DNA of 64,000 nt from assembly GCA_018239675.1 (NCBI GenBank), contig JAFEGX010000126.1:1-64000 (forward strand), in the 5' to 3' direction. Of this stretch, positions 5,313 to 61,610 are shown in pieces. Position numbers and translations under genes: made by a program. The notes under the pieces were generated by a model. That model was not told where the DNA came from. It made no database searches and saw only the letters and a list, made by a program, of their open reading frames with translations. Numbering within the stretch: position 1 is the first letter of the stretch; every line of letters begins with the position of its first letter. Source of the DNA: Verrucomicrobiota bacterium. Its GTDB lineage: Bacteria; Verrucomicrobiota; Verrucomicrobiia; Opitutales; Opitutaceae.

Positions 5313-7346
5313 TCAGCGGCGCGGCTGCGCCTGTTCGATCACCCTCCGCCAGTCGTCGAGCGTGCCGGTGGTGGCGGCCGCGATCTCCTCGGCGGTGAGA
5401 CGGTAGATCAGGATGGAGTAGCCGATGTTGGCGTCCGGCTGGCGGGCGCGGAGATAGTGGCACAACCGGGCGAACCGGAGCAGGTCATGGCGCGTCCAGG
5501 CGCGTTTCCATTTCTCCGGGCTGCCGGCGCGGTCGAGCTCCGCGCGGCGCGCGGGATCACTGAAGTAGGCCAAGAAGGCCGGCTCGAAGCTGCGCATCCA
5601 TTGGTACTCCTTCTCCAGTTCGGGAGTCCACGGGCCCCGGATCGGGCTGTAGACGTGGTCGAGCATCGTGGCGCTGATGCAGTAGATTCCCGGCGTGAGC
5701 GGCACCCACGGCTGCGGGATCTTGAAGCCGTTCACGAAGGGCAGGCGCCGGGCCTGGATGTGGTAGTAGTCGGGTTCGCCCGAGCCGCAGTAGGAGAGGT
5801 ACACCGGCTCGCCGTGCGCGTTCCGGTCAAGCCACGCCTTCAGGCCCGGCAGGTCCTGTCCCCAGTCGAGCGAGCTGTCGACGAGGTGGCGGTAGCCTTC
5901 GGCGGGACCGCCGACCGCCGGGTTGAAATAGGCCAGGTAGTGCGGGTACGTCCGCACGCCCTCGGCCACCTGCCAGCCGACGAGCACGACAACGAGCGCG
6001 GCGGCGAGGCGGTGGCGGGCGAGCCAGGTGCCCATCGCGCCGAACAGGATGAACAGCACCGGGTAGGTCGGCAGGAGGTGCCGGTGGCCGATGTTCAGGT
6101 GGGAAGTGAGGGAGGCCGCCCAGTACACGCCGAACAGCACCAGCAGCGGGGTCACGCGGTAGAGGTCCGCGCGCCAGGCCGCCGCGGCCGGTCCTTTGCT
6201 CCAGCGGCGCGCCAGCGCGCCGAGGCCCGCGACGCACGCGAGCAGCACCGGCAGCGTCGACTTGTACAGGAACGCCAGCGGGAAGAATTTCGTCCAGCCA
6301 ACCACGCTGTAGGCGCCATCGAGGAAGCCCGAGCGGTACTGTGACATCTCGACGACAAACGAGAAGCCGTAGAGAAACGCCTCCGGCAGGAGATGCGCGG
6401 CCCGCAGCGCCTGCACGACGGGGGCGAATCCGCCGATGTGGTCGAGCGTGACGGCCCACGGGCGGATGAAATGGTCCGCCGGCGACACGGCCGGATTGAA
6501 CGCGGAGTAGCGGAAGCCGAAGAACGCCCAGATGATGATCCAGGCCACGACGCCCTGGCCGACGGTCGAGAGCGCGATCGCGCCGAGCTTGCGGCCCGGG
6601 GCGGTCCACCGGCGCCCGAGCCACTCCAGCGGCTCCGGGGCCCACGCGCGCACGACGGCCATCAGCACCATCATCGGCAGGATCAGCACGGCCGAGACCT
6701 TCGCGACGCAGGCCAGGCCGAAGCCGACGGCGCTGGCCCACCACCAGCGCCGGCGCGGGTCATGCAGTTCACGCCAGTACGCGCCGACCGACACCAGGAA
6801 AAACAGGACCATGCAGACGTCCGACGTCGCCAGCGCGCCGTGCGCGAGGAAATTCGGGCTGAAGGCATAGAATGCGAGCGATACCAGCCCGCCGGCGGTG
6901 CCGAAGAGCCGCCGCGACCACAGGAACACCAGCAGGCCCGTGGCCACGCTGAAGAGCGCGATCATCGCGCGCCCCGCCATGAGCCGCGGGAAATGATCCT
7001 CCCCGGTCTCGTAGAAAAACTGGTGCCCCAGCACCCAGGCGTCGGAGGTCCGCCAGTAGATGTTGTCCTTGATCGCCGGAAACTTGGCGCCCTCCAGCCA
7101 GGCAGGCAGGGCGGCCCAGCGCTGCGGCAGGTTGCCGTTCTCGGGCTGGATCCGGTAGTCGTTGAACTGCCAGTAGGTGAATCCGCCGGTCAGGTGCGCC
7201 AGCTCGTCGGCCGTCACGCTTTCGCGGGCCTTGCTCGCGACCGCCAGCAGCCAGTGCAGCGCCAGCAGCATCGCCACCACCGCGACCAGGACGGGGCGGG
7301 AGCGATGCCATGGCGTCTGGGGAGAACCCGCGGGAGTCACGAACAT
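5313..7346 (-). CDS. GT39-like membrane glycosyltransferase
   Basis: A 677-residue membrane protein. The first outer loop contains TADELAHLTGG, with the DE pair of GT39/PMT-like enzymes, followed by an ENGNLPQRWAALPAWL segment equivalent to the usual N.PPL motif. Many hydrophobic helices and a soluble C-terminal part follow; YSILIYRLTAEEI lies near the end. The role would be lipid-linked sugar transfer on the outer face of the membrane. ATG 7346 is preferred over a TTG at 7376. It is convergent with the GT87-like gene (3 bases apart) and divergent from the methyltransferase at 7460. Confidence 0.7.
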   Translation of the reverse strand: MFVTPAGSPQTPWHRSRPVLVAVVAMLLALHWLLAVASKARESVTADELAHLTGGFTYWQFNDYRIQPENGNLPQRWAALPAWLEGAKFPAIKDNIYWRTSDAWVLGHQFFYETGEDHFPRLMAGRAMIALFSVATGLLVFLWSRRLFGTAGGLVSLAFYAFSPNFLAHGALATSDVCMVLFFLVSVGAYWRELHDPRRRWWWASAVGFGLACVAKVSAVLILPMMVLMAVVRAWAPEPLEWLGRRWTAPGRKLGAIALSTVGQGVVAWIIIWAFFGFRYSAFNPAVSPADHFIRPWAVTLDHIGGFAPVVQALRAAHLLPEAFLYGFSFVVEMSQYRSGFLDGAYSVVGWTKFFPLAFLYKSTLPVLLACVAGLGALARRWSKGPAAAAWRADLYRVTPLLVLFGVYWAASLTSHLNIGHRHLLPTYPVLFILFGAMGTWLARHRLAAALVVVLVGWQVAEGVRTYPHYLAYFNPAVGGPAEGYRHLVDSSLDWGQDLPGLKAWLDRNAHGEPVYLSYCGSGEPDYYHIQARRLPFVNGFKIPQPWVPLTPGIYCISATMLDHVYSPIRGPWTPELEKEYQWMRSFEPAFLAYFSDPARRAELDRAGSPEKWKRAWTRHDLLRFARLCHYLRARQPDANIGYSILIYRLTAEEIAAATTGTLDDWRRVIEQAQPRR

Positions 7347-7459
7347 CGACGCAAGCGCGGCCCGGGTGGAACGCAACCGCGAACGACCGGGCCGGTCGGC
7401 GAAATCCCATTCGACTTTCCGGCGCGGGGCTTCGAGCCTCGGGCCGACCCGCCGCGCCG

Positions 7460-8203
7460 ATGAATGCCGAAGAGTACACGAACCTGGACCGAGTCGAGGG
7501 CGAGCACTGGTATTACTCGGGCAAGCGGCGTTTTGTCCGCGACTGGCTCTGCCGCGTGCGGCCGCCGCGGCCGTCCGACGTGCTGCTCGACTGCGGGGCC
7601 GGCACCGGGCGCTTCGCGCTGGAGATGCAGGCCCACTGTCGCGTCATGGTCCTCGACGACCACGAGGAGGCGCTCCGGCTGCTGCGCTCGCGGTTCCGGC
7701 CGGACCAGATCCTGAGCCTGTCCGGCGACACCGTGCCGCTGCCCGACGGCGCGCTGGAGTACGTCACCGCGCTCGACGTGCTTGAGCATGTCCCGGACGA
7801 CGCCGCGGTCGTGCGCGGGTTCCACCGGCTGCTCAAGCCCGGCGGCCTGGCCGCCGTCACCGTCCCTGCCAGCATGGCGCTGTGGAGCGACTGGGATGAG
7901 GCGCTGCACCATTTCCGACGCTATCACCGCCCCCAGCTCCGCGCGCTGTTCCCGGCGGACGCCTGGGAGATCGTCTACGTGAATTACACCAATGTCCTGG
8001 TCTATCCCGCCGTGTGGCTCGTCCGGAAGTGGCGGCGGCTGCGCCAGCGCCTCGGCCTGGGCGCCCCGGCGGCCCGCACCGAGGACCAGCTGCCGCCGCG
8101 CTGGCTCAATGCGCTGCTGCGGTCGGTCTTCGTGACGATGGCCGGGTGGCGCCTGCCGATGCCGTTCGGGGTCAGCCTGCTGCTGGTCGCCCGCCGAAAG
8201 TGA
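7460..8203 (+). CDS. class I SAM-dependent methyltransferase
   Basis: A 247-residue protein. The SAM-binding motif I is LLDCGAGTGRFALEM (about residues 34-48). Motif II/III features follow, with ALDVLEHVPDD and a post-motif LLKPGGLAAVTVP, typical of the Methyltransf_11 fold. The open frame extends further upstream, but homology-like sequence begins at MNAEEYTNLDRVEGEHWYY, so ATG 7460 is used. The C-terminal hydrophobic stretch and the neighbouring glycosyltransferases suggest modification of a glycan or lipid carrier; the substrate is unknown. Its stop lies one base before the convergent stop of the next gene. Confidence 0.75.
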   Translation: MNAEEYTNLDRVEGEHWYYSGKRRFVRDWLCRVRPPRPSDVLLDCGAGTGRFALEMQAHCRVMVLDDHEEALRLLRSRFRPDQILSLSGDTVPLPDGALEYVTALDVLEHVPDDAAVVRGFHRLLKPGGLAAVTVPASMALWSDWDEALHHFRRYHRPQLRALFPADAWEIVYVNYTNVLVYPAVWLVRKWRRLRQRLGLGAPAARTEDQLPPRWLNALLRSVFVTMAGWRLPMPFGVSLLLVARRK

Positions 8204-8204
8204 C

Positions 8205-10457
8205 TTACGGCCGCAGCCGGACTAGCGCGAGCTCGGCGCCGGCGGGATCGCGGATGACCAGGAAGGTCCGCGCCGTGGAAAATCCCGCCCCGGCGCGGTT
8301 GAAATAGAGCGAGATCTCGGCCGCGCCGCCGGGCGCAAACGGGAAGGCGGCCGCCATCGTCGGACCGCGCGGCTGCCCCGACAGGTCGATGGGGGTGACC
8401 TCCACCCGGGTGTTGGCCCGCGACAGCACGAGGGGCGCGGGCCGGGCCTCGTCCATCGCGGTCAGGGCGATGCTCCCGATCTCCTGCCCGGGCGCGAGAA
8501 GCACGTCGAGTTTCACCAGCGTGTCCGCCACCCCGGGGCCCGCGGCCTTCGAGCCGAAGATCTCGGCGGTGAACAGCGGCGCGATTCGGCGGCCCTTCGC
8601 GACGCGGAACTGGAAGCCGTCGATCTCGAACGCCGTTTCGTAGTGGCTCATCACGTAGTCGTAGAGCTTGCCGCCCGGCGTGAGGTGGCGCTGGCGCAGG
8701 AAGTCGAGGTGCCCCGCCTGCACGATCACGCACGCGCGCGGGTGCGCGGCCAGGCTCGCGATGATCGCGTCCTGCTGGTCGTCGTCGAGCAGCGAGAACC
8801 AGTGCGTGACATTCGCGAGCGTGGGCGTTGGCTGCTGGCTCCAAAGGTTGAAGCTGAACATGCCCGGCAGCGAAAACAGCATGTCGCCGTGCACGGTGGC
8901 GTTCAGCACCAGCAGGCGGTACAGGGCCGTGGTGCTGTCCGGCAGGCGCAGCGTCTCGGCGCCGGCCAGGTCGAGTGGACGGCTGTCGAAGTACCGCGAG
9001 CCGATGCGGGCCAGCCGGTCGCCGGTGAACACCGCCAGCGCCGCGAGCAGGAGCGTGAGCATCACGTCCATCCGCTGCAGCCGCCCGATCGTCGAGGGCT
9101 GCCCGTGCCGTCCGGCCAGCCAGCCCGTGGCCTGCCACGCCCCGATCGCCGCGAGCGGCAACGCGAGGAAGGTGCCCCAGGCGATCTGGCTGCCGGGCAC
9201 CGGGAAGGGATGGAGCCATTGCCCGAGGAACAGCAGGCCCAGCCATTGGCGCGCGTTCACGCCGGCCGCGTCCTCGCCCGCCAGCGGCCAGAGGAACAGC
9301 CACAGGCACGGCAGGGAGTACGCGAAGACGTCGTTGTCCGGGCTCACCTCCGGGAACCGCCAGATCGCCCACCCGAGCGCCGCGGCCGCCGCCAGCCGCA
9401 GCAGGCCGACGAGGGAATCGACCGACACCCGGCGCAGCCAGCCGAGGCGGAGCGACGCCTGCAGGAGCAGGAACCCGGCCAGCGAGATCGAGCCGACCGT
9501 CAGCGCCCCGGGGGGCCAGTGAAACTCCAGGCTGAAGTGCCCCGGATGGTGCAGCGGCCCGAGGATCATGCCCTCGACGAGCTCGGCCGGCGTCGTGCCC
9601 CGCAGCACCACAACCCCGAGCACGACGACGGTGACCGCGAGGCCGGCGGCGACCGCGACGAGCCAGGGTGAGTGGCGCGGCGCCGGTCCGGGCAGCGGGC
9701 CCGCGCCCGCGGCCAGCGCGAAGGCGACCGGAATGGCGGCAAAGGCGAAGATGAGCGCGTAGGTCTGCACCCAGGGCGCGCCCAGCAGCGGACGCATCAG
9801 GCCAAATGGCAGGACGACCAGCCCGGTGGCGACGATCCACGGCACCAGCCGGCGCCAGCGCTCCGTTCCCGTATGGTAAAGCAGCACCGCCACCGCCGAG
9901 AGCGTGGCAAACACCCCGACATTGATCTTGGCCAGGGCCAGCGCCGCCGCGCCCGCGCCGGCCAGGGCGGCCCAGCGGGTCCATTGCCCGGCCTCCAGCC
10001 AGCGATAGCCGTAGGCGGCGAGGATGGCGGTGAGCAGCGCGATCAGGCCGCCCGGATGGTTCGGCTCGCTCACCATCACCCACAGGTAGACGAACGCCCC
10101 GGCCAGCACCGCCAGCATCAGCGCGCTGTGCCGCGTCGCCCGCCAGACCAGCCAGGCAACCAGGGTCGCGGATCCGCTCCAGGCGAGCAGGGTCACGAGC
10201 CGCCCGGCCGTGTGGGTGAACGGCAGGCCGAGCAGGTGCAGCCCGTAGTAGAGCACATAGGGCAGCGGCCCGTACTGCGTGTAGACGTCGCGGTACAGCC
10301 GGCCGTGCTCGGCGAAGTTTCGCAGCGAGAGCAGCACGTAGCCCTCGTCGTCGTAGAGCATGAACGTGCTGAACAGCATCAGCCCGGCCGCCACCGTCAG
10401 CGCCGCCGCGCCGGCCAGCAGGATCAGGAAAGGCAGTCGGACCTTTGGGGCGTTCAT
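8205..10457 (-). CDS. polytopic membrane protein, GT-C superfamily
   Basis: A 750-residue membrane protein with an N-terminal signal anchor, then an outer loop LYDDEGYVLLSLRNFAEHG and YGPLPYVLYYGLHLLG. The acidic DDE cluster and the following P-rich helix entry resemble RgtB/GT-C type sugar transferases. After about ten helices there is a soluble region of roughly 250 residues, which may be a periplasmic domain. ATG 10457 (MNAPKVRL) is chosen because residues upstream in the open frame look non-coding. It lies downstream of the GT2 gene at 10531 on the same strand (73-base gap). Confidence 0.65.
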   Translation of the reverse strand: MNAPKVRLPFLILLAGAAALTVAAGLMLFSTFMLYDDEGYVLLSLRNFAEHGRLYRDVYTQYGPLPYVLYYGLHLLGLPFTHTAGRLVTLLAWSGSATLVAWLVWRATRHSALMLAVLAGAFVYLWVMVSEPNHPGGLIALLTAILAAYGYRWLEAGQWTRWAALAGAGAAALALAKINVGVFATLSAVAVLLYHTGTERWRRLVPWIVATGLVVLPFGLMRPLLGAPWVQTYALIFAFAAIPVAFALAAGAGPLPGPAPRHSPWLVAVAAGLAVTVVVLGVVVLRGTTPAELVEGMILGPLHHPGHFSLEFHWPPGALTVGSISLAGFLLLQASLRLGWLRRVSVDSLVGLLRLAAAAALGWAIWRFPEVSPDNDVFAYSLPCLWLFLWPLAGEDAAGVNARQWLGLLFLGQWLHPFPVPGSQIAWGTFLALPLAAIGAWQATGWLAGRHGQPSTIGRLQRMDVMLTLLLAALAVFTGDRLARIGSRYFDSRPLDLAGAETLRLPDSTTALYRLLVLNATVHGDMLFSLPGMFSFNLWSQQPTPTLANVTHWFSLLDDDQQDAIIASLAAHPRACVIVQAGHLDFLRQRHLTPGGKLYDYVMSHYETAFEIDGFQFRVAKGRRIAPLFTAEIFGSKAAGPGVADTLVKLDVLLAPGQEIGSIALTAMDEARPAPLVLSRANTRVEVTPIDLSGQPRGPTMAAAFPFAPGGAAEISLYFNRAGAGFSTARTFLVIRDPAGAELALVRLRP

Positions 10458-30965: not shown

Positions 30966-30975
30966 CGGCGGGTTT

Positions 30976-31064
30976 TCGGAGATCGGAGTTCGGAGATCGG
31001 AGTTCGTCAACCAAGCCGGTTTGGCTGACCGTCCCGATCTCCGAGCTGCGAACTGCGATCTCCG
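30976..31064. repeat. extragenic palindrome, GATCGGAG class
   Basis: The left arm has two tandem units of cggagatcggagtt (30976-31005) and the right arm (31033-31064) has gatctccgagctgcgaactgcgatctccg. The arms are imperfect reverse complements. Related text is at 50068-50244 and 46409-46425. Confidence 0.7.
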
Positions 31065-31096
31065 AAGTTTCCGAAAGCTACGCTTTCGGAAACTTC
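31064..31096 (-). terminator. 15-bp hairpin spanning the stop codon of the Gfo/Idh gene
   Basis: Arms 31064-31078 and 31082-31096 are perfect reverse complements with a 3-nt loop. The TAG of the minus-strand gene (31078-31080) sits at the loop, so the last five codons form one arm. No T-tract follows; it may act as an mRNA 3' end stabiliser rather than a terminator. Confidence 0.5.
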
Positions 31097-42506: not shown

Positions 42507-42618
42507 CGACCGACGAACGCCGGACGTCGGACGTCCAATGCCGAAGGAGCGTGTGCGGCCACGGCCGCGACGGGCTGGCCTTCAATGTTCGGCGTCCGGC
42601 GTTGGACGTTCGTTCGGT
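42507..42618. repeat. extragenic palindrome, GACGTCGGACGTCC class
   Basis: Arms of about 38 bases (42507-42545 and 42581-42618) are imperfect reverse complements; the core is gccggacgtcggacgtcc. Related text at 28088-28106. Confidence 0.65.
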
Positions 42619-50047: not shown

Positions 50048-50310
50048 GGCCGCGACAGGCCGCGGCCGGAGTTCAGAGATCGCAGTTCGGAGTTCGTTTT
50101 TAACATCCGAATGCGGGCCGAGCGCCTTGTCCCCAAGGCGCTGATTGCGTTTGCTCGCGCCAATAGTCGTGCGGACGTGCCCAGCGCCTTAAGGACAAGG
50201 CGCTCCACCCGAATCGAACTCCGAACTGCGATCTCCGATCTCCGGCGCCGGCGGCAAGCCGCCGGCGCTTCCTTCTTCCCACCAACCCTTTTCGGTCTTC
50301 AACTGAGACC
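50048..50310. repeat. nested extragenic palindrome, GATCGGAG class, plus GC hairpin
   Basis: Outer arms 50068-50096 and 50214-50244 (gttcagagatcgcagttcgg and reverse complement, imperfect). Inner perfect 13-base arms gagcgccttgtcc 50120-50132 and its reverse complement 50193-50205. A 10-bp perfect hairpin gcgccggcgg/caag at 50245-50268 follows, before the trmH-like gene; it may terminate transcription. Confidence 0.7.
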
Positions 50311-56568: not shown

Positions 56569-57017
56569 CTTCGAGGAGACCCAATCCGTCCAAGCCTCGC
56601 ACAGGAGGTAACGGAGGAGGGGAACCGCTGATCTGCGCCAATTGGACCTGGCTTGGTTGTAGCAGCCGACGTGAGGAGGCTGCCACCTGGCATATCATTT
56701 GGCAGAACTCCTCCTTGTCCGTCAGCTTTTGGAAAAAGGATTTCCCCTCCACCGGTCGCGGCATCGCGTGGAACCGCGTCGCACGCTCGCTGGAGGAAAT
56801 TCTTGCGCACGGCTGTCGGATCGGACCGCACCCGGGCCTTCCATGCGAGGCAAGTCAAAGCCAGGCCCGTCCATTCGTCTGAGTCGCGATCAGAAATTCC
56901 GAGACAGCCTCCTCACGTCGGCTGCTACGGGCGGAGGTGGTCGCGGTTGGCCTGGGAAAATCAGCAGCTTCGGACGGCCTTGGCCTCTCCGTTGCCTCCT
57001 ACGCCGATCTTGACCGT
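56569..57017. other. intergenic region holding a 270-bp element with 24-bp inverted repeats
   Basis: 449 bases between the ALDH7 gene and the 3' end of recD2. Most of it is the element listed at 56659-56928. The open frames inside have no coding character. Confidence 0.6.
56659..56928. repeat. 270-bp element with perfect 24-bp terminal inverted repeats
   Basis: 56659-56682 (gtagcagccgacgtgaggag..) and 56905-56928 are exact reverse complements over 24 bases. The interior (222 bases) is unique in the window. A single further copy of the arm is at 38233-38256. There is no target duplication at the edges and no transposase gene. Confidence 0.8.
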
Positions 57018-59375
57018 TCATTGCCTGCACCGTGCCAGGACTTCCTGGCGCAGGTGGGTGATGCGCTGCTTGGACTCGCTGTTGCGGACGGCCATGCCGT
57101 AGGCGGCGGGCTCGCCGACCACGATGACCTTCTTCCGGCCGCGGGTGATCGCGGTGTAGAGCAGGTTGCGCTGCAGCATCATGAAATGGCCCTTCAACAG
57201 CGGGATGATCACCACCGGGTACTCGCTACCCTGCGACTTGTGGATGCTGATCGCGTACGCCAGCGCGAGGTCGTTGAACTCGCCGCGCTGAAAGGTGTGC
57301 CGCTCGCCGTCGAAGTCGGCGTCGAGCGTGCCGTTCACGCCGTCCACGGATTTGACGGTGCCAATGTCGCCGTTGAAGAGGTTCTTGTCGTAGTTGTTCC
57401 GGAGCTGGATGACCTTGTCGCCAGGCTTCAGCTCGCCCGCCGGACCCCGCAGGCCGCGGCCATGCGGATTCAGCGCGGCCTGCAGCGTGGCATTGAGGTT
57501 GGCGACGCCTGCGACGCCCTTGTGCATTGGTGCGAGCACCTGAATGTCGTCGACCGGATGGAACCATTTCCACATCCGCGGCACGAATTCCGTGCATAGT
57601 GCCAGCACCTTTTGCAGGCAGTCGTCGGGGTCCTTCGCGATGACGAACGTGAGGTCGCTCCACGCCTGGATCGCCGCGAGGTCCGTCACCGCCGGAGGCA
57701 GGCCCGCATCGCCCGCGTTGATGGCGTGCGCGGTCGTCACGATGCCGCTCTGCTCTTTTTGGCGGTAGATGACGGACAACCGCGTCACGGGTAGGCGCGG
57801 TTGGGAGATAGGAGATGGGAGGTGGGAGATGGAAGACGGGAGCTGGCGGACGGGCTGAGCCGAAGGCTGTATGCGACTAGGTTTTCCATCTCCGATCTCC
57901 GAGCTTCCATCTTCCAGCTTCTCGCTGGCGGCGATGAGGTCCTTTAGCACGTTGCCCGCACCGACGCTGGGGAGCTGGTCGATGTCGCCGACGAGGAGGA
58001 GGTGGGCCTTGGACGGGACGGCCTGCAGGAGCGCGGCGGCGAGGCGGGCGTCGAGCATCGACGCCTCGTCGACAACCAGGAAATCGGTCGCGAGCGGATG
58101 CGACTCGTTGCTCGTGAACCCGCCGTTGGCCGGGTCGTATTTCAGCAGCCGGTGGATGGTCGACGCAAACCCGCCGGTGGTCTCGGCCAGGCGCTGCGCC
58201 GCGCGGCCGGTCGGGGCGGCGAGGTGCACCCGGACCTTCTTGGCCTTCAGGATCTCGACCAGCGCGCGCAGGATGGTCGTCTTGCCCGTGCCCGGACCGC
58301 CGGTGAGAATCGTGAACTTGTGGGTGAGGGCGAGCCGCACCGCCGTCCGCTGCAGGTCGTGAAACTCGAATCCCGCCTTCTGCTCGGCCCATTGCACCGC
58401 CGCGTCCGCCTTGATCGGCGGCAGGCCACTCGGCACCCGGTTCAGGCGCGCCACGACTTCCGCGATCTTCTGCTCGGCCCGGGCGTTGACGGGAAGCTGG
58501 AGCAGCGACTGCGGATCGCGGATTGCGGATTGCGGATTTTCCAGGGCCTGACGAATGACGGCTTTGGACTCGACCAGGGCCTGGATCCGGGCGGTGACCA
58601 GGTCGGTGGAGGACTCGAGCTGCTGGGCGGAGTATTCGATCAGGTCGCCCTCGCGGAACGCGGTGTGGCCCTCCTCCTGCAGCGTCTCGAGCGCGAAGAT
58701 GATGCCGGCGTCGAGACGCGGCGGCGCGTCGTTCGCGAAGCCGAGGTTGATGGCGATGCGGTCCGCGGTCTTGAACCCGATGCCGTCGATCTCACGGGCG
58801 ACGCGGTAGGGCTCGTTCATCAGGATCTGCTTCGCCGCCGGGCCGAAATGGTTGACCAGTTTCACGCACTGCGAAGGCGTCACGCCGTAGGTCTGGAGAA
58901 AGATGTAGAGCTCGCGCTCCGTGCGCTTCTCGTCCCACGCCCGCTTGATCGACGTGGCGCGCTTCGGGCCGATGCCCTCGACGTCGCGGAGCTTGCCTGA
59001 CTCCTCGCTCAGCACGCGGAACGTGTCGGTACCGAAGGCGTCGACGATCTTGTTTGCGTAGACCTTGCCGATGCCCGGCACGAGGCCGCTGCCGAGGTAC
59101 TTGCGGATGCCGTAGACGGAGGACGGCAGCTCGGACTTGAAGGCCGCGATCTTGAACTGCGCGCCGTGCTGCGCGTGGCGCGTCCACTCACCCTCGAGGT
59201 GCAGGGTCTCGCCGCACTCCACGCCCGGCAGCGCGCCGACGATGGTGACCTTGGCTTCCGGATCCTTCGGGTTGGCCGAGTCCGGCCGGAACTCCGCGAT
59301 GGTGTAATGGTTCTCCTCGTTGAAGAAGATGATGCGTTCGAGGACGCCGGTCAGGGAAATCGAGGAGGGAGGCAC
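57018..59375 (-). CDS. recD2: RecD2-like DNA helicase (YrrC family)
   Basis: A 785-residue protein with GTG start. The N-terminal OB-like domain (1-80) is followed by two helix-hairpin-helix blocks (LVPGIGKVYANKIVDAFG, VEGIGPKRATSI, and IDGIGFKTADRIA). Walker A GGPGTGKT is at 359-366, DEAS at 436-439 and GDIDQLPSVGAGNVLKDL at 463-480. Near the C-terminus NGDIGTV, LAYAISIHKSQGSEYPVVI and LLYTAITRGRKKV are motifs IV-VI. Two insertions (about 279-290 and 486-527) have the composition of extragenic repeats and are absent from my memory of RecD2 families. Superfamily 1B 5'-3' helicase. Confidence 0.92.
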   Translation of the reverse strand: MPPSSISLTGVLERIIFFNEENHYTIAEFRPDSANPKDPEAKVTIVGALPGVECGETLHLEGEWTRHAQHGAQFKIAAFKSELPSSVYGIRKYLGSGLVPGIGKVYANKIVDAFGTDTFRVLSEESGKLRDVEGIGPKRATSIKRAWDEKRTERELYIFLQTYGVTPSQCVKLVNHFGPAAKQILMNEPYRVAREIDGIGFKTADRIAINLGFANDAPPRLDAGIIFALETLQEEGHTAFREGDLIEYSAQQLESSTDLVTARIQALVESKAVIRQALENPQSAIRDPQSLLQLPVNARAEQKIAEVVARLNRVPSGLPPIKADAAVQWAEQKAGFEFHDLQRTAVRLALTHKFTILTGGPGTGKTTILRALVEILKAKKVRVHLAAPTGRAAQRLAETTGGFASTIHRLLKYDPANGGFTSNESHPLATDFLVVDEASMLDARLAAALLQAVPSKAHLLLVGDIDQLPSVGAGNVLKDLIAASEKLEDGSSEIGDGKPSRIQPSAQPVRQLPSSISHLPSPISQPRLPVTRLSVIYRQKEQSGIVTTAHAINAGDAGLPPAVTDLAAIQAWSDLTFVIAKDPDDCLQKVLALCTEFVPRMWKWFHPVDDIQVLAPMHKGVAGVANLNATLQAALNPHGRGLRGPAGELKPGDKVIQLRNNYDKNLFNGDIGTVKSVDGVNGTLDADFDGERHTFQRGEFNDLALAYAISIHKSQGSEYPVVIIPLLKGHFMMLQRNLLYTAITRGRKKVIVVGEPAAYGMAVRNSESKQRITHLRQEVLARCRQ
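57795..57920. repeat. palindromic insertion inside recD2
   Basis: Encodes about residues 486-527. Left arm 57801-57835 (gggagataggagatgggag) and right arm 57884-57915 (ccatctccgatctccgag) are imperfect reverse complements. The residues read SSEIGDG and SSISHLPSPIS, which are translations of GAGAT/ATCTC repeats. Confidence 0.7.
58506..58541. repeat. GGATTGCGGATT repeat inside recD2
   Basis: cggatcgcggattgcggattgcgga on the plus strand; encodes ENPQSAIRDPQS (residues 279-290) on the minus strand. Three tandem units of about 8 bases. Confidence 0.6.
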
Positions 59376-59390
59376 GGGCGCTGGACGAGA

Positions 59391-59665
59391 AGTTGGTGGC
59401 TAGCAGCTGGTAGTTAGCAGTCGGCCACGCGCATCGGCAAGCTGGTCGTGGACCACCAGGCAAAACGGCGCACGAATCCCGCCGCCCGGCAGCGCCGGAA
59501 TCCTACCAACTACGGGCTACCGCGGTAGTTGGTAGCGAGTAGCTGGTAGTTAGTAACCGGCCGCGGTTATCGGCAGGTTGATCGTGCACCATCAGCTATA
59601 ACGGTGGACCAATCTCGCCGCCCGGCAGCGCTGGAATCCTACCAATTACCAGCTACTAACTGCCA
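59391..59665. repeat. two diverged tandem copies of a palindromic repeat, TAGTTGGTAG class
   Basis: Copy 1 (59391-59521) and copy 2 (59527-59665) are offset by 136 bases. Each starts with agttggt..agctggtagttag and ends with cgccgcccggcagcg.tggaatcctacca. The arms are inverted relative to each other within each copy. They lie between recD2 and the symporter operon, with the distal end next to the stop of the small gene. Confidence 0.75.
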
Positions 59666-59666
59666 A

Positions 59667-59837
59667 CTACTTCCTCCCCGCCTCGTCCTCCGACGCCTCG
59701 TGGACCGTCTTCAGCGTCGCGATGAGCGACTTGAGTTCCTTGCCGGCCTTGGCGCCGACGTAGAAGACGAGGAAGCCATACCACGCGATCGAGGTGTAGA
59801 GAAGGATGGCCCAGACCAGGACGTAGGGGTCTTTCAT
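59667..59837 (-). CDS. small membrane protein of symporter operon (56 aa)
   Basis: A 56-residue protein: MKDPYVLVWAILLYTSIAWY..., one transmembrane helix (about 6-28) and a charged C-terminus (KTVHEASEDEAGRK). It starts one base after the symporter stop. The sequence resembles the short accessory proteins found beside sodium:solute symporters in many bacteria. It may stabilise or gate the transporter. Confidence 0.75.
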   Translation of the reverse strand: MKDPYVLVWAILLYTSIAWYGFLVFYVGAKAGKELKSLIATLKTVHEASEDEAGRK

Positions 59838-61338: not shown

Positions 61339-61449
61339 GGGAGAAAGTTAAGCCTGGACGCGGCTGGAAGGGGTGGGCCGCCCCGCCACCTTGCCGCATG
61401 CCCGCCCGGAGTGAAGCGGATTCGCGCGGAATATTCGATGGGGCGGGAG

Positions 61450-61610
61450 GCGATAAGCGGTAGGCTGTAAGCTTTAGGCTGTAGGCTTTAAACTAGGCGC
61501 TAGGCACTGGGCGCTGCTTGAGGATGCAGCCAAGTGCCGTGCTCGCCGGGCACCGCCTCCTGCTTATCGCCTGCAGCCTAGAGCCTACCGCTTAAAGCTT
61601 AGCGCCTAGA
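61450..61610. repeat. extragenic palindrome, TAGGCTGTAAGC class
   Basis: Left arm 61450-61506 (gcgataagcggtaggctg.. and taggctttaaactaggcgc) and right arm 61561-61610 (tgcttatcgcctgcagcctagagcctaccgc..) are imperfect reverse complements of about 50 bases. The right arm includes the TAG stop of the phosphatase gene (61606-61608). Confidence 0.7.

Follow-up and report, generated by a model that had tools for sequence, protein, structure and literature searches.

A heptamer palindrome lies in frame within a variable loop of the RecD2 helicase of an Opitutaceae bacterium

The recD2 gene described here raises the question of whether palindromic repeat DNA of the kind found between genes can become part of a protein, and how it is tolerated there. 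The best-known palindromes that code for protein are those of Rickettsia; the present gene belongs to an Opitutaceae bacterium (assembly GCA_018239675.1, a draft genome of 148 contigs) and lies in the window analysed in this study, the 64,000 nucleotides at positions 1-64,000 of contig JAFEGX010000126.1. A preliminary description of this DNA had proposed that an extragenic palindrome, absent from relatives, was captured in frame at 57795-57920. The comparisons presented below support that proposal and make it probable that the insert is a member of a genome-wide class of heptamer palindromes, one that preserves the frame within a permissive RecD2 loop and is presumably translated into a disordered insertion of 42 residues.

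The recD2 gene and its insert

The open reading frame at 57018-59375 (minus strand) encodes an SF1B helicase of 785 amino acids, assigned from the list of open reading frames, Pfam, and structural matches. The HHH_RecD2, OB_YrrC, AAA_30, SH3_13, and UvrD_C_2 domains all score above the Pfam cut-offs, and the top structural matches are the Deinococcus radiodurans RecD2 entries 3e1s and 3gp8 (Z 30-32). The product is a RecD2, with the OB, HHH_RecD2, RecA-like, and SH3 domains together with UvrD_C_2. Alignments with relatives and with D. radiodurans RecD2 place an in-frame insert of 126 nt at 57795-57920 (minus strand; ends accurate to within a few codons), which adds 42 residues to the six-residue loop of relatives that lack it: the motifs KDLI and VTRLSVIYRQ are separated by 48 residues, AASEKLEDGSSEIGDGKPSRIQPSAQPVRQLPSSISHLPSPISQPRLP, in this protein and by six in relatives. 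No stop interrupts the frame, and all RecD2 domains are recognized to either side of the insert, so the intact frame and flanking helicase motifs reported in the preliminary description stand, as does its length as a multiple of three, the 126 nt being the same length as the interval noted there. The description had also called for the segment to be placed within the RecA-like domains: it follows motif III of the first such domain, and this part of the chain is predicted to be disordered.

The arms of the palindrome are degenerate heptamer arrays, GGAGATG at 57802-57837 and CATCTCC at 57881-57916 (both as read on the plus strand), of 36 nt each, 78% complementary, and spaced by 43 nt. Between 57790 and 57930 the inverted-repeat score is 18.4 (shuffle mean 7.0) and the period-7 matching is 0.54 (shuffle mean 0.27), and neither value is reached by any of 500 dinucleotide shuffles, in agreement with the imperfect palindrome originally described. 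Folded as RNA, the insert is mildly more stable than its shuffles (z -1.8); single-stranded DNA of the same sequence has no clear extra stability over shuffles (z -0.8). The palindrome is thus a symmetry of sequence and not an exceptionally stable fold. The exact pattern CCATCTCC-6N-GGAGATGG has zero matches, as the units and their spacing vary too much to be captured in a single fixed form.

Beyond what was previously noted, the insert has a strict period of 7 nt, close relatives carry an empty site, and the gene contains a second array. This array, ATTGCGG/CCGCAAT at 58500-58546 (minus strand), was located by a period-7 scan, encodes NPQSAIRDPQS, and sits at about residues 276-292 in a loop whose length varies and which corresponds to variable region 2 of the relatives. 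The predicted structure of RecD2 is confident save mainly at residues 492-523 and 281-287, where pLDDT falls below 50; these are the two repeat-bearing loops. Immediately downstream of recD2, at 56659-56928, there is also a perfect 24-nt inverted pair, GTAGCAGCCGACGTGAGGAGGCTG, which is GTAG-REP-like and has near copies at two loci (L043 and L195).

Empty and filled loops among relatives

The comparison set comprised 29 family members that were aligned first, extended with named relatives from GTDB genomes to 85 distinct RecD2 sequences. The loop is short in 55 of these, usually with six residues, and long in 30; among the first 29 members, six residues of the ATERVP type are the commonest form. 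A short loop is likewise the rule outside the family, since two matches abut at this point in most genomes of the order, and in the solved D. radiodurans protein, which is without the insert, query residues 483 and 528 match adjacent residues. On the RecD2 tree the state of the loop changes about 20 times, at least 14 of these changes being forced by well-supported branches, with the qualification that gains and losses were counted on a quick tree and are approximate. The outcome that had been named as counting against an insertion, namely a segment with conserved residues in all relatives, is not what these sequences contain: the long loops vary in both sequence and length.

The closest contrast is between the sister sequences L007, which is empty (ATERVA), and L127, which is filled by a palindrome of 47 residues, on branches of 0.014 and 0.019 (total distance 0.033 substitutions per site). 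Divergence between these two peaks at the insert only, with 14 differences per 60 nt (vs. about 4 elsewhere), and in the pair L009 and L003 it reaches 16 and 11 (vs. about 2). No target-site duplication was seen at filled/empty pairs, where the flanks differ by haplotype. Inserts of the GGAGATG type occur in L001, L002, L003, and L127 and are of equal or near-equal length (47-48 residues), while the identity of the insert residues across species is 38-53%, in comparison with 83-99% for the neighboring protein on either side. The filled GGAGATG alleles are flanked by GTGACG and then a TTR leucine codon, and the empty alleles by GTCAC and CTN. The sharing of this insert by four congeneric species, with linked flanking bases, implies that it is older than the source species and that the tree count overstates the number of independent gains; losses and recombination contribute to the changes in loop state. 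The sharp, site-limited divergence fits either short-tract recombination of filled and empty alleles or one old gain followed by local losses. Separately, the L127 RecD2 (genome G008; open reading frame 5956-9435) is extended by about 350 residues at its Walker A motif; this segment includes a LAGLIDADG domain and is probably an intein. The RecD2 of G036 and, judged by match positions, of G035 is likewise interrupted there by a long insertion.

Different repeats occupy the same RecD2 loop in other species: GCAGTTC arms in L004, AATTCCA arrays in L027, CTCAACT-type arrays in L024, L092, L104, and others, and a GTAG-tagged REP pair in L016 and L084. Several separate captures are still needed to account for these different words. 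REPs of the GTAG type are characterized by a GTAG tag at the foot of the stem, a short stem, and many near-identical copies. The genome that holds L016 (G033) has two REP copies that are 98% identical within RecD2, one in the insert loop and one in the second loop, and both are read in the same frame (AGVADPGRPGSTSPA); this REP has 28 matches in the genome, and the insert begins with GTAG. Together with the heptamer arrays, these copies indicate that two kinds of extragenic palindrome entered the same two RecD2 loops. Among the in-gene arrays of the named relatives, 24 of 28 are in RecD2 (one further array, in the RecD2 of L060, was missed by the script); this excess comes from loci that were chosen for holding recD2. 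The share is larger than a plain permissive loop might predict.

Heptamer arrays across the genome

Period-7 arrays number 121 in 1.02 Mb of the source genome, a sample that was in part picked for matching the insert, so that the density may be somewhat high, and 2-7 arrays were found for each control period (multiples of neither 3 nor 7: 4, 5, 8, 10, 11, 13, 16, 17, 19, and 20). An earlier sample of 0.33 Mb that was not selected by matches, consisting of the window and the first parts of contigs C1-C20, agrees with this result. Period 7 is in clear excess over other periods, and the arrays are therefore a heptameric repeat class. Only 21 of the 121 lie in called genes, though coding sequence makes up 80% of the DNA, and 69 lie in palindromes with a score of at least 14 (vs. 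14 of 400 random positions), which amount to 50 palindromes. Samples from other genomes of the family contain 0-20 arrays per 100 kb, and small samples (62-80 kb each) from three genomes of other families of the order contain none.

The preliminary description held that the words of the insert are of the same kind as those between genes, and this is borne out: GGAGATG pairs occur at about a dozen loci of the source genome (control pattern, 0), and the window has several intergenic heptamer palindromes. These include TCGGAGA/TCGGAGT at 30975-31066 (32-nt arms, 88% complementary), 42507-42612 (36-nt arms), 50059-50252 (41-nt arms, 88% complementary), GTAGTTG/GTAGCGA at 59525-59670, just outside the recD2 start, and GGCTGTA/AGCGGTA at 61448-61607 (44-nt arms). 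The arms at 50059-50252 surround a REP-like palindrome (50111-50143 / 50182-50214), such that two repeat classes are nested. The ATTGCGG word occurs in 20 arrays of the genome. With the insert itself excluded, matches to it in its own genome cover arm-length stretches only, of about 14-53 bases, and no shared core was found among the 50 elements: the loops between their arms are unrelated, with the exception of overlapping elements at one locus, the likeness of that locus to a single further element, and a match of 17 nt. The elements favor none of the convergent, divergent, or tandem arrangements of flanking genes. Mirror units across the arms match better than neighboring units within an arm (0.80 vs. 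0.69), which hints that one arm was copied from the other, in elements that were themselves selected for symmetry. A purine-rich 5' arm was observed in 45 of the 50 heptamer palindromes and in 30 of 48 other inverted repeats in the same 1.02 Mb.

Because 7 and 3 have no common factor, a pure heptamer array encodes the same cyclic heptapeptide in all three frames, and it consequently has a stop in every frame or in none; for a palindrome within a gene, the heptamer must be stop-free on both strands. Words stop-free on both strands make up 19 of 21 in-gene cases and 37 of 74 intergenic ones (p 0.0008), a comparison which is weakened by called open reading frames being stop-free by definition and by possible wrong starts, and which describes a filter and is no proof of selection. 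The other firm internal case in the 1.02 Mb is mutL (L035:4106-4344, in contig C5), where an ATTGCGG heptamer palindrome with 39-nt arms covers most of the linker joining the N- and C-terminal halves of the protein; arrays occur in the same MutL linker in several relatives. Several other in-gene arrays are N-terminal and may reflect misassigned starts. Those in shikimate dehydrogenase, TGT, a NuoE-like protein, and a symporter lie upstream of the recognizable domain and were left aside, as the start calls are probably wrong. Among further observations, heptamer arrays at L067:192-233, L083:1200-1250, and L090:1104-1165 code for N-terminal hydrophobic, signal-peptide-like stretches, in a small lipoprotein-like gene, and a period-7 array at L102:1859-1958 codes for a heptapeptide-like repeat, AETGNRRPETGDGKAETGDRRPETGERR, in a 361-aa open reading frame.

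Origin of the insert and relation to known repeats

The insert is lineage-specific and a multiple of three in length, its words are dispersed in the genome, its loop is predicted to be disordered, and its protein sequence evolves rapidly. In other species, this loop and one further loop hold repeats of other kinds. The most likely explanation of these features is that an extragenic palindrome was captured, with near-neutral effect, in a loop that tolerates insertions. The array may have come from intergenic arrays, or grown as they do, by spread, slippage, or copying across a hairpin, and could have persisted since, without stops, a heptamer array can be read in all three frames and only its net length must fit. 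The insertion would be close to neutral for helicase function, a protein segment would be made from it, and filled and empty alleles may have been swapped between species via short-tract recombination.

Other explanations of the same features can be weighed against this one. MITEs have terminal inverted repeats, a shared core, and a target-site duplication, and a non-autonomous element of this sort (MITE- or RPE-like), with a defined sequence and a transposase acting in trans, would account for the palindromic shape, for the same words at many loci, and for the GTAG-REP pair in the RecD2 of G033, which is a real dispersed family. We regard this as unlikely for the insert, given that words alone are shared among the 50 elements apart from the few loop exceptions, that no target duplication was seen at filled/empty pairs, and that no Y1 transposase (PF01797) was found in the source genome, a search which speaks to the Y1 type alone. 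Retention for function, whether by a loop that tunes RecD2 activity or by an mRNA hairpin that tunes translation, has a smaller chance of being correct. The 24 of 28 in-gene arrays found in RecD2, the repair role of MutL as the other firm case, and the length of 47-48 residues in the four GGAGATG alleles are in its favor, but the RecD2 excess stems from recD2-selected loci, the residues fall to 38-53% identity between species, sister species are without the insert, and RNA folding exceeds shuffles only mildly.

More improbable still is an ancestral origin, with the loop as a disordered RecD2 domain that was lost many times and that looks palindromic only secondarily. The single insert haplotype in four congeners amid empty species would fit presence and losses within the genus, yet the loop is short beyond the family, both in most genomes of the order and in the solved D. 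radiodurans protein, and from species to species the inserts are made of unrelated heptamer words or of a REP, which a single ancestral domain would not produce. An artefact of assembly or gene prediction is hardly credible: although the draft genome consists of 148 contigs and repeats are easily misassembled, the frame is open, the flanking protein is intact, and similar inserts occupy this position both in genomes that other studies produced and in the record of Ereboglobus sp. PH5-10 (L085). Capture into a permissive loop may also be part of a broader pattern, in which heptamer palindromes would be a distinct class copied from arm to arm, would enter genes readily through being frame-neutral, and would repeatedly enter loops of repair proteins (RecD2, MutL), perhaps as those genes or proteins help to make the repeats; we consider this extension doubtful.

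Families of Rickettsia palindromic elements (RPE) code for a conserved peptide. The insert resembles these elements, being in frame within a functional gene and empty in orthologues, and having a comparable size (126 nt with 36-nt arms; RPE, about 100-150 bp palindromic), but it is not one of them: a full-length family sequence and a conserved peptide are not found here, loops and peptides being unrelated while heptamer words recur, and its arms are tandem arrays. Many RPE, of about 150 bp, lie in frame within unrelated functional genes (PMC10969869). REPs tagged with GTAG/CGTC, which are dispersed extragenic palindromes, have been reported in Opitutus terrae, sometimes within genes (PMC3733652), and a REP-like pair shares the RecD2 landing loop in G033; in contrast, the insert in the window is without the GTAG tag and is built of heptamer arrays, in a genome where no Y1 transposase was found. 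The heptameric simple sequence repeats of Xanthomonas and Nostoc share the seven-base unit, and such repeats are over-represented in bacteria, mostly intergenic, and sometimes inverted (PMC4692102), whereas here many words per genome form degenerate arrays and in-register palindromic pairs that are captured in protein loops. In Borgs, nucleotide repeats within genes yield disordered protein segments (PMC9879509); those in-gene repeats are perfect and have units divisible by three, while the heptamer is not divisible by three and the whole element keeps the frame. Heptameric repeats (PMC4692102), intragenic REPs (PMC3733652), and disorder arising from repeats (PMC9879509) are thus each already known, and published REPs in coding regions and GTAG repeats in O. 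terrae (PMC3733652) limit the novelty of the present case, while no report of the combination of heptameric repeats, intragenic palindromes, and disorder was found in the part of the literature that was searched.

The heptamer palindromic pairs are good material for studying the source of the abundant heptamer arrays of bacteria, and the frame-neutral coding of seven-base repeats offers a simple reason for their tolerance in genes. Repeat DNA from between genes can thus probably serve as a source of new protein sequence. Within this one family the same two loops of a repair helicase have been entered many times and empty and filled sister species are at hand, so that the way in which repeat DNA gives rise to new disordered segments of protein can be tested directly.
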